Of a stretch of 64,000 nucleotides of DNA, positions 11,638 to 59,223 are shown one piece after another. The notes under the pieces are model-generated. The model was not told the DNA's origin. It ran no database searches and worked only from the letters and a program-made list of their open reading frames with translations. Numbering within the stretch: the stretch's first letter is position 1; each line of letters opens with the position of its first letter. The position numbers and the translations under genes were made by a program. Origin of the DNA: Leucobacter triazinivorans (lineage in GTDB: Bacteria; Actinomycetota; Actinomycetes; Actinomycetales; Microbacteriaceae); contig NZ_CP035806.1 of NCBI RefSeq assembly GCF_004208635.1, positions 434,001-498,000 of the forward strand, written 5' to 3'.

Positions 11638-11714
11638 CGCGGGGTGGAGCAGTTCGGTAGCTCGCCGGGCTCATAACCCGGAGGTCGTAGGTTCAAATCC
11701 TGCCCCCGCAACCA
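11638..11714 (+). tRNA. Initiator tRNA-fMet (CAT anticodon)
   Basis: 77-nt cloverleaf with encoded CCA. Bacterial initiator hallmarks are visible. The first base C is opposed by A rather than paired (acceptor CGCGGGG against CCCCGCA). The anticodon stem carries three consecutive G:C pairs flanking the loop CTCATAA. The T-loop is GGTTCAAATCC. It is followed directly by a strong terminator, so it is a single-gene transcript. Confidence 0.95.
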
Positions 11715-55981: not shown

Positions 55982-57535
55982 TCATCCCTCGACGAGGATC
56001 GCGCGCAGCCGCGCGATCGCGGCGCCGAACTCCGCGTCGTCCGGACCGCCCATGCCCAGCACCAGGCCGGCGGAGCGGTCCGAACGGTGGTGCTGCCAGT
56101 AGGCCCCGAGCGCCGCGACTCCGAGCCCGTTCGGAAAGCCCGGCACCGGCTCGGCCGCCCGCGCGACCGCCTGCGCTTCGCGGTCCTGAGCGGTCGAGGC
56201 GGCGCCCGCCAGCTCGACCACCGCGTGCAGCCCGCCGCTCATGGGGCGCACCCGCGCACCGGCCACGCCGGCGAAGCACTCGGAGATCAGGTCCCTGCGC
56301 GCCGCGTGACGACGGCGCACGCGGGCGATGTTGCGGCGCAGCTCGCCGCTCGCCAGGTAATCCGCCAGCGCGAGCTGCACCACCGCCGACACGGGCGATC
56401 CGAGGTCGCTCCTCACCGGCTCCAGCAGCGAGCGCAGCTGCTCCGGCGCGAGCAGGAAGCCCGCGGAGAGCGCCGGCGTCACCGTGCTCGAGAAGGTGCC
56501 GAGGGTCACCACCGATCCCGCGAACGGGTCGTCGAGCGCCGCGAGCGTCGGCAGCGGGCTGCCGACGTGACGCAGCTCGGAGTCGTAGTCGTCCTCGACC
56601 ACCACCACGCCCGTGCGCCAGGCCCAGTCGAGCAGTTCGCGGCGGCGCGGCAGGGGCAGCGAGCCGCCCACGGGATACTGGTGGCTCGGCGTGACGATGA
56701 CGAGGTCGAGCACCCCCGCCGGCAGGTCGTCGGTGCGCAGACCGTCCGCGTCGACCGGCAGCGACACGATCCGCGCGCCGTGACGCGCTGCCACGCCGCG
56801 CAGGGAGGGATACCCCGGATCCTCCACCCCCACGACCAGCCCGTTGCCGCGGGTGGTGCCGAGGGCGGTGAGCAGCAGGCCGAGCCCTTCCCGGGTGCCT
56901 GCGGTCACGAGCACGTCCCGGGCCGGCCTGGCGGTGCCGCGCACGAGGCGCAGATGCTCGGCGAGCTCGGCGCGCAGCCGGGGATCGCCGAGCGCGGGCG
57001 GGCGGTGGTCGGCGCGAGCGGCCGCCCGGCGCCACGCCGCGCGCCACGCCGGATGCTCGGCGGCGTCGGTGAGCGGCGCGCCCGGCGCGAGCGGAGGGCG
57101 CGCCACGGCACCCTCCGGCTCGGGCCCGGCTGGGCCGGTCGGATCGTGCGGGTCGGGAGACGGGCGCTCCCGCTCTCGAGCCGCCCCGGGTGGATCCCCC
57201 GGGCGCACCGGCACTCCGCCGGGCGCCGACGCGGCGGATCGCCCGGCGGCGGTCGCCGGCGCGAGATCCGGATTCACGACCGTGCCGCGGCCGCGCTCCG
57301 CACGCAGATAGCCCTCCGCGATCAGCTGCTCGTAGGCGGAGACCACCACGCCCCGGGCCACGCCGAGACGGCTCGCGAGCCTCCGGGTCGCCGGCACTTC
57401 CTCGCCCGGACGCAGCCCCGCCGCGTCAATCACCTCGCGCAGCGCGGCCGCGAGCTGCACCGGGAGCGGAGCCCCGGCCGCGCGGTCGAGGTGCACCGGG
57501 AACTCGGCTGGTGCTCGGAAGGAACGCTCGCTCAC
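55982..57535 (-). CDS. pdxR: MocR/PdxR-type regulator with PLP-site lysine missing
   Basis: A 517-residue GntR-aminotransferase chimera. The N-terminal winged helix ([37 protein letters not shown]) is joined by a Pro/Gly-rich linker (about residues 85-150) to a class I aminotransferase fold with [27 protein letters not shown] and [15 protein letters not shown]. In MocR proteins the last block reads FSKT and its lysine forms the PLP aldimine. Here it is FSST, so covalent PLP binding should be lost. It faces the truncated pdxS gene, the normal activation target of PdxR. GTG start 57535. Confidence 0.85.
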
Positions 57536-57563
57536 CGTTCCAGTCTGTCAGCGGCGGGTGGAT

Positions 57564-57606
57564 TGGTCCAGTTCAACTCACCAGAAATGGATCATGTCAT
57601 GGACCA
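57564..57606. promoter_or_regulatory. Three TGGNNCA half-sites in the pdxR-pdxS divergent promoter
   Basis: TGGTCCA (57564-57570), TGGATCA (57588-57594) and TGGACCA (57600-57606) repeat at 24 and 12 base spacing in the 95-base intergenic region. MocR/PdxR regulators bind repeated GGTCCA/GGACCA-like sites, so these are candidate PdxR boxes. Confidence 0.5.
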
Positions 57607-57630
57607 GCGAACCCGGCCAGGGTGGAAGCC

Positions 57631-58320
57631 ATGACTGAGACCAGCCCGGCACCCACCGCTCGCCTCTTCCCCGCCGCCACCGGTTCCCCGCTCGTGAAAC
57701 GGGGCCTCGCCGACATGCTCAAGGGCGGCGTCATCATGGACGTCGTCACGCCGGATCAGGCCCGAATCGCGGAGGACGCGGGCGCCGTCGCGGTGATGGC
57801 GCTCGAGCGCGTGCCGGCCGACATCCGCGCCCAGGGCGGCGTAGCCCGCATGAGCGATCCCGACCTGATCGACGGCATCAAGGCGGCCGTCTCGATCCCC
57901 GTCATGGCGAAGGCGCGCATCGGCCACTTCGTCGAGGCGCAGGTACTCGAGGCGCTCGAGGCCGACTACATCGACGAGAGCGAGGTGCTCTCCCCCGCCG
58001 ACCACGTCAACCACATCGACAAGCGCGACTTCACCGTGCCCTTCGTGTGCGGGGCGACCAACCTGGGCGAGGCGCTGCGCCGCATCGCGGAGGGCGCGGC
58101 CATGATCCGTTCCAAGGGCGAGGCCGGCACGGGCGATGGGGGCGCTGCTCGCCTGCGCAAGCCGCTGAGAGCTTCCCCGGCGGGCGAAAGGGGCCTCTCG
58201 AATTTCAGGACGCATTCGCTGCGGAATCGAGCCGATAGCGCAGCGAATGCGTCCCCGATTGTTCGAGTGCATTGGGAGATCGAAGGTCGCGGGGCGGCGG
58301 GATCGCGGCTCACCCGCTGA
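57631..58320 (+). pseudogene. pdxS: Truncated pyridoxal 5'-phosphate synthase lyase subunit PdxS
   Basis: The first ~169 codons (to GAT at 58135-58137) are typical Pdx[35 protein letters not shown] (catalytic Lys), [20 protein letters not shown] (second Lys) and [12 protein letters not shown]. Homology then stops abruptly. The frame continues through about 60 unrelated residues to a TGA at 58318-58320. The missing part is about 120-130 residues, including the phosphate-binding GGI and GSGIF loops of the barrel, and no pdxT follows. The product cannot make PLP. ATG 57631 has GGTGGAAG before it. Its stop overlaps the methyltransferase 3' end by 11 bases. Confidence 0.85.
58208..58254. repeat. 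Perfect 16-bp inverted repeat in the non-homologous pdxS tail
   Basis: 58208-58223 and 58239-58254 are exact reverse complements with a 15-base loop. The surrounding 58138-58310 segment is less GC-rich than its neighbours. It could be a terminator for the methyltransferase or a scar of the event that truncated pdxS. Confidence 0.75.
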
Positions 58321-59173
58321 ACCGCACCGACGTCCCGGCGAGGCGGTCGCGCATGACGGTGATCGCCGCCTCGTTGTCGTCGACCGCCACGAACCGCCGC
58401 CCCAACTCGGCCGCCGCCGCGGCCGTCGTGCCGCTGCCCGCGAAGGGGTCGAGCACCCAGTCGCCCGGACGCGACGAGGCCTGCACGATGCGGCGCAGCA
58501 CGCCGAGCGGCTTCTGCGTCGGATAACCGGTGCGCTCCTTGCCCGTCGGCGAGACGATCGTGTGCCACCAGGTGTCGGTGGGGAGCTTGCCCCGCCGCGC
58601 GCGCTCGGCGGTGACGAGCCCCGGCGCCATGTAGGGCTCGCGGTCCACGGCCTCGGCGTCGAAGTGGTAGCGATCCGGATCCTTCACGTAGACGAGGATG
58701 TTCTCGTGCTTCGTGGGCCACTTCCGACGCGAGCGCGCCCCGTAGTCGTAGGCCCAGATGATCTCGTTGATGAAGCACTCCGGGCCGAACAGCCCGTCGA
58801 GCAGCACCTTCGCGTAGTGCACCTCGCGGTAGTCGAGGTGCAGGTACAGCGTGCCGTCGGGTGCGAGCAGACGCCACGCCTCCTCGATGCGCGGCTCGAG
58901 GAACTCCCAGTAGTCGACGAAGCGATCGTCGAACGCGAGCGTGCGCTCTCGGGTGACCGTGTATCCCTGCCCGCGGAAGCCGAGCCTGCCTCCCGGCTCG
59001 CGCTCCTCGGTGCGCACGCCGCGCACCCGCTCGGCCTGCCGGAACAGGCCGGTGTTGAAGGGCGGATCCAGGTACACCAGCGTGAAGGATTCGTCGGGCA
59101 GCGCCCGCAGGAACGGGAGGTTGTCCCCCGCGTGCACCAGATCGGGTCCGCTCGGGTGCCAGGCTTCGATCAC
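58310..59173 (-). CDS. Orphan beta-class DNA (N4-cytosine/N6-adenine) methyltransferase
   Basis: A 287-residue site-specific DNA methyltransferase. Motif [13 protein letters not shown] precedes motif [16 protein letters not shown] near the C-terminus, which is the beta-class order. Between them lie a target-recognition-sized region and [19 protein letters not shown]. No restriction endonuclease is adjacent, so it is probably a regulatory or orphan methylase. GTG 59173 is six bases after TAGGCT. DPPF is shared by m4C and m6A enzymes, so the modified base cannot be decided. Confidence 0.88.
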
Positions 59174-59179
59174 CGACCC

Positions 59180-59185
59180 AGCCTA
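59180..59185 (-). promoter_or_regulatory. -10 box TAGGCT, leaderless-type
   Basis: TAGGCT on the minus strand, spacer GGGTCG, then GTG 59173. Confidence 0.55.
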
Positions 59186-59223
59186 GCGCCGATGTCGGCG
59201 GCCGCCGCTACCGCGGGGTGCGC

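Follow-up and report, generated by a model that had tools for sequence, protein, structure and literature searches.

At positions 57631-58320 of the window, by which we mean the whole stretch of 64,000 nucleotides analysed here (positions 434001-498000 of the genome of Leucobacter triazinivorans, which consists of one contig of 3,478,815 bp and is 98.9% complete), a gene for PdxS breaks off halfway and is followed by no pdxT. This arrangement raises the question of whether the organism has lost the DXP-independent route to vitamin B6, or whether the missing half is hidden by the assembly, replaced by a copy elsewhere or simply not needed by a shorter protein. The comparisons described below indicate that the pdxS-pdxT operon has very probably been inactivated by one deletion, in which 158 unrelated bases took the place of 1,122, and that the bacterium is predicted to live on imported pyridoxal via the kinase PdxY. 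The features of the locus are as follows.

55985-57535, minus strand: pdxR, intact gene (517 aa) for a MocR-type regulator of B6 genes (GntR plus aminotransferase fold; NF052282)
57536-57630, no strand: divergent pdxR/pdxS promoter region with TGGTCCA ... ATGGATC ... TGGACCA
57631-58320, plus strand: truncated pdxS open reading frame, 229 codons plus stop
57631-58137, plus strand: what survives of pdxS at its 5' end (codons 1-169), including the active-site Asp, both Lys and an intact putative PdxT-docking helix
58137-58294, no strand: 158-bp replacement sequence, occurring once in its own genome
58138-58320, plus strand: tail of the open reading frame, 60 unrelated codons plus stop, its TGA overlapping the end of the methylase gene
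58208-58254, no strand: inverted repeat, 16 bp perfect (22 nt at 91%), between convergent genes
58313-59173, minus strand: N6/N4 DNA methylase gene (PF01555, 152.5 bits), the conserved and convergent right-hand neighbour that anchors the junction

The initial annotation had described the first 169 codons as clean PdxS with both catalytic lysines, followed by an end of homology within one codon, and both the lysines and the sharp boundary were confirmed. The catalytic D, K and K stand at the aligned columns, the docking helix is kept at 10 of 10 positions, and the Pfam family SOR_SNZ (PF01680) matches residues 21-169 only (model positions 3-151 of 207), with no Pfam match in the frame beyond residue 169. 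The word clean holds for the family match and the catalytic residues, but not for the sequence as a whole, which carries three private amino-acid changes among the relatives compared. The PdxS models NF003215 and TIGR00343 also match the frame, but far below their curated cut-offs (297.9 vs 395 and 275.6 vs 438.45 bits, respectively), and with 138 of the 276 core codons left, the eight-stranded barrel and the C-terminus are incomplete. DNA identity to Leucobacter celer (G005) is 86% up to 58136 and 90% from 58295 (BLAST boundaries, accurate to a base or two), and the similarity of pdxS ends directly 3' of codon 169. Between these two points, 158 bp in the window (58137-58294) stand against 1,122 bp in L. 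celer; the latter comprise the last 138 pdxS codons with the stop codon, the whole of pdxT and 24 bp past the pdxT stop. A full-length orthologue is present at the same site in L. celer and in a second relative, G034.

A stretch of 173 bases unlike the coding DNA of the neighbours had been proposed to follow the break; the unrelated sequence comes to about 158 bp. When these 158 bp were compared on both strands with the DNA that they replace in L. celer and G034 and with the next spacer, no local-alignment score exceeded the best of 60 shuffles, and no match was found in plasmid and phage records. When the own genome and those of 53 relatives were searched with them (for nearly every genome, 15 candidates were scored), the hits were the sequence itself, its own hairpin arm and short matches. 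The one of 36 bases in L. celer corresponds to the end of the methylase gene, and those of 24-32 bases in six other genomes look like chance, with surroundings that contain neither pdxR, pdxS, pdxT nor the methylase. The perfect 16-bp inverted repeat is present as first described (58208-58223 and 58239-58254), and the stretch around it folds as RNA at -48 kcal/mol (z = -5.8), better than 200 of 200 shuffles. The hairpin could possibly act as a terminator between the two convergent genes, though no T run follows it. An imperfect palindrome (58196-58269) with one occurrence in the genome surrounds the repeat. Copies of the repeat core with at most three mismatches number 14 in the window vs 9.3 expected, which is no clear enrichment, and the sole hit of an Rfam scan of the window is a tRNA at 11638. 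The replacement may have arisen by one deletion with filler or in several steps.

In the whole genome, PF01680 has one match, which is the truncated pdxS, and PdxT was detected neither by PF01174 nor by a profile built on 14 PdxT proteins of the genus. This profile, for which 14 of 15 PdxT proteins were aligned, finds PdxT at 315.9 bits or above in 15 of 54 Leucobacter genomes; the protein of G034 was excluded, its reading frame extending into the methylase region. In that genome (locus L042) the usual pdxT stop is missing and the frame continues for about 60 codons. A search for PdxJ, the marker of the DXP-dependent route, was negative in all 54 Leucobacter genomes, that of the window included, and positive in four of 14 controls, E. 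coli among them. The search for another full pdxS or pdxT or for a pdxJ route was thus negative, and with no second pdxS or pdxT in a single-contig genome the suggestion that the DXP-independent route has probably been lost, together with the rest of the barrel and PdxT, gains support. Since the last 138 codons are missing and there is no glutaminase partner, the half barrel is unlikely to be a working PLP synthase. A PdxY pyridoxal kinase is encoded elsewhere in the genome (299 aa; NF004398, 371.9 bits vs a cut-off of 292), and the PdxH C-terminal domain, detected in 14 of the 54 genomes, is absent from the matches of this one, which makes pyridoxal the vitamer most likely to be usable. From this gene content, the B6 supply left is predicted to be salvage, mainly of pyridoxal, which would be imported and phosphorylated by PdxY. 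In the open-access literature, no account of pdxS or of B6 auxotrophy in Leucobacter was found.

Comparison of the same site in sister species revealed an intact pair, a loss of pdxT only and a loss of both genes. L. celer, L. tardus and L. zeae have the gene order pdxR, pdxS, pdxT, methylase, and G034 has full pdxS and pdxT genes between the same pdxR and methylase. The order in L. salsicius M1-8 is pdxR-pdxS-methylase, with pdxT missing and 15 bp from the stop codon of pdxS to that of the methylase gene. In L. chromiisoli CSA1, about 80 bp lie between the start of pdxR and the end of the methylase gene, and no trace of pdxS or pdxT was found in this interval. On the other side of the methylase gene, before the enoyl-CoA hydratase gene, L. 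celer carries a glyoxalase-like gene of 118 aa (PF18029); it is missing in the window, where a spacer of about 50 bp (59174-59223) is found, a second difference beside the same methylase.

The relatives also help to judge whether the 3' half of pdxS and pdxT are real and were lost or misjoined in the assembly. The junction is known from assembled sequence alone and contains a strong hairpin, a structure able to trouble sequencing, and gaps do occur in this genus, as in G016, where pdxS is missing from the assembly and a pdxT match ends at a contig end. This pdxT piece (L126 3825-4034, 76 bits, beside the methylase) was considered as a mirror-image loss and set aside; the contig end and an rpoC near-identical to that of G033, which has both genes, point to an assembly gap. 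For the window, however, an artefact is improbable, as the genome is one contig of high completeness, searches of it located the missing genes nowhere else, the 158 bp are no copy of another place in the genome, the remnant bears its three private amino-acid changes and L. chromiisoli shows a loss at the same site.

Across the 54 Leucobacter genomes, both genes are present in 15, a full pdxS with no detected pdxT in another 15 (solo genomes), no detected pdxS in 23 (these include fragmented assemblies and G016 with its likely gap) and the truncated gene in one. PF01680 is accordingly present in 31, 30 times at full length, and pdxT adjoins pdxS in 15 of the 30 genomes with a full-length gene. 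No PdxT was detected in the solo genomes by PF01174, and the genus profile gave only weak matches of 20-22 bits; next to pdxS its absence is seen in 12 of the 15 solo loci (L017-L031), with unreadable downstream DNA in three. A hidden PdxT in eight of the 15, to which such weak matches (about the first 97 profile positions) could have pointed, was rejected: they putatively belong to another amidotransferase family, since three genomes with a real PdxT show it as a second match. Assemblies in single contigs with a completeness of at least 98% occur among the solo genomes (G003, G004, G017, and G021) as well as among those that lack pdxS (G001, G013, G015, G023, G025, and G051). In a family sample of 398 Microbacteriaceae genomes, 10 of them Leucobacter, pdxS is present in 374 and pdxT over the cut-off in 370; outside Leucobacter, pdxS is found in 367 of 388 genomes, at least four of which (G099, G103, G172, and G252) have no pdxT match. 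Leucobacter stands out in the family for loss. The PdxS E-values of those four genomes (1e-98 to 1e-100, where the remainder of the family mostly reaches 1e-102 to 1e-108) are weaker and resemble those of solo Leucobacter.

These counts speak to a further explanation, an intact B6 route on a plasmid or other replicon absent from the assembly. Plasmid-borne pdxS-pdxT pairs are described for a few bacteria and an archaeon in the accessible part of one survey (PMC9997740), but no Leucobacter genome among the 54 shows a second PF01680 match and 23 of them have no match at all, indicating that loss is common in the genus, and we consider this explanation very improbable.

Deletion of the end of pdxS and of pdxT thus being the preferred reading, the remnant gives an indication of its age. 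Over the 138 shared codons this genome has three nonsynonymous and 10 synonymous private changes, compared to 0 and 11 in G034, the sister in the rpoC tree (support 0.69), and 0 and 10 in G005; the contrast of 3:10 with the pooled 0:21 is borderline (Fisher P = 0.048). Two of the three amino-acid changes affect sites at which each of the 30 full-length relatives has V/I or Y/F. Pairwise dN/dS of the remnant is 0.044 vs G005 and 0.050 vs G034 (0.044-0.064 vs four relatives). With only three private amino-acid changes, the remnant looks at most lightly decayed, which fits a deletion that would be recent relative to the split from the nearest sampled relatives. That the 229-aa protein is a functional short PdxS under selection would agree with this low dN/dS, with the kept catalytic residues and docking helix and with the kept promoter, but it is very improbable, because the other 30 Leucobacter PdxS matches are all full length and none of the 53 other genomes has the same short gene, no twin exists among the best 120 of 8000 scored protein hits (in which three hits of similar length sit on contigs under 2 kb), two private changes hit the V/I or Y/F positions and the product would be half a TIM barrel plus 60 unrelated codons.

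The proposed deletion would have removed the last 138 pdxS codons and pdxT and left pdxR, the shared promoter region and 169 codons in place. The regulator, divergent from pdxS, scores 391.3 bits with NF052282 (cut-off 320), and a dN/dS of 0.12-0.15 vs G005 and G034 indicates that pdxR is still under purifying selection. The promoter elements TGGTCCA, ATGGATC, and TGGACCA are probable PdxR sites; TGGTYYA and ACCA are common to all seven aligned loci (the window and six Leucobacter), including that of L. chromiisoli without pdxS. The promoter of the latter (L048 4914-5000) has kept TGGTCTA and TGGACCA and not ATGGATC. Since L. chromiisoli keeps pdxR and these two elements without pdxS and pdxT, its PdxR probably has another target, perhaps itself.

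The solo genomes differ from the window in the part of PdxS that has changed. The ten residues directly before GGVIMDV, which from their position we take to be the putative PdxT-docking helix alphaN, are kept at 9-10 positions in the 15 PdxS proteins with a PdxT and at only 1-7 in the 15 solo proteins, compared to 8-10 in eight PdxS proteins of other genera, taken without regard to their PdxT. Core identity to the class consensus is similar in solo PdxS (80-90%) and in other genera (82-91%), so that general divergence does not explain the decay of the putative helix. In the accessible text of two structural papers, the conserved helix alphaN of Pdx1 mediates the interaction with Pdx2 (PMC7504066) and a Pdx2 loop touches the N-terminal helix of Pdx1 (PMC8313854). 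The catalytic residues are kept in all 15 solo proteins, the NF003215 cut-off is passed by all six that were tested and the TIGR00343 cut-off by four of them (the other two fall short by less than 3 bits), and dN/dS in the nine pairs computed is 0.03-0.14, several with a synonymous distance near 1. Taken together, solo PdxS looks to be kept by selection while its docking site decays.

In vitro, PdxS is able to work with free ammonia. According to the parts of the studies that are accessible, Pdx1 of S. aureus works on free ammonia in vitro with a 2.5-fold lower specific activity and, depending on the substrate, a 5- to 20-fold lower efficiency (PMC11237949), and Pdx1 of P. falciparum uses free ammonia about equally well (PMC2266796). 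The solo PdxS proteins of Leucobacter are predicted to be candidates for natural PLP synthases running on free ammonia. In B. subtilis, suppressors of a pdxT deletion reportedly manage with PdxS without PdxT. The survey mentioned above, as far as accessible, lists eight PdxS-only cases among genomes without a predicted pathway and raises the possibility that a single one of the pair might be enough (PMC9997740). We lean slightly towards a scenario in which pdxT has repeatedly been discarded in the genus: roughly half of the PdxS-keeping species would run the enzyme alone on free ammonia with a decayed helix, and the lineage of the window would have gone straight from the intact pair to loss of the pathway. 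The two-subunit PLP synthase of the textbooks would in that case be optional in nature.

How often pdxT was lost depends on the tree that is used. In an rpoC tree pruned to the genomes with full pdxS, the solo genomes fall into seven clades with midpoint rooting and into 7-10 over tip rootings. A count of pdxS loss gave 15 clades among 18 genomes, this one included, with the tips G012, G016, G039, and G046 set aside (the rpoC tree is without G032, G042, G044, and G047 and uses partial rpoC for G036, G012, G046, and G010). The tree of the PdxS core, by contrast, unites the solo sequences in one group that also contains the pdxT-bearing G020 (basal node support 0.76-0.88), and fewer pdxT losses plus transfer, from a single old solo lineage, are possible. 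Since gene tree and species tree disagree and several nodes are weakly supported, the number of losses is uncertain, and we conclude cautiously that pdxT was lost repeatedly in Leucobacter. G020 (L015) has pdxT and an intact docking helix, yet its core lies among the solo proteins, which would point either to a regain or to late survival. In this tree, the sequence from the window (138 residues) is placed beside an outgroup protein with a support of 0.70, which we read as an effect of its shortness. Within 1.5 kb upstream and 1.25 kb downstream, both pdxR and the methylase flank a solo pdxS only in G027 among the 15 (G008 starts near a contig end and three loci are unreadable downstream); in longer stretches of four other solo loci, pdxR and the methylase were not found.

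The finding in the window thus holds, and its most probable nature is a simple loss-of-function deletion accompanied by filler sequence. It offers a clear snapshot of the loss of a cofactor pathway, for which the relatives show the states before and after at the same site, and it predicts a concrete growth requirement for the cultivation of these bacteria. The locus represents one state in a genus in which the operon has apparently been dismantled repeatedly, the states being the intact pair, loss of pdxT only, the cut form and complete loss. In Leucobacter, PLP synthase seems able to dispense with its glutaminase partner, and the pattern makes it testable whether PdxS without a glutaminase can supply a cell with PLP in nature.

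Compared to the complete systems of L. celer and the 14 other Leucobacter with PdxS and PdxT, the 138 residues of the remnant are 97.1% identical to the consensus of the 15; L. celer has the same neighbours, pdxR and the methylase gene, whereas the window lacks the last 138 pdxS codons and pdxT. L. chromiisoli shares with the window the flanking pdxR and methylase genes and some promoter elements, but half of pdxS remains only in the window. The PdxS-only bacteria of the survey have PdxS without PdxT, with no change in the docking helix described in its accessible part (PMC9997740), while pdxS of the window is truncated. L. salsicius offers another parallel, as pdxT is missing there from the identical position, with pdxS on one side and the methylase gene on the other; in this species and the 14 other solo genomes, however, PdxS is of full length with its catalytic residues kept and the helix degraded, whereas in the window PdxS is cut and the helix intact.
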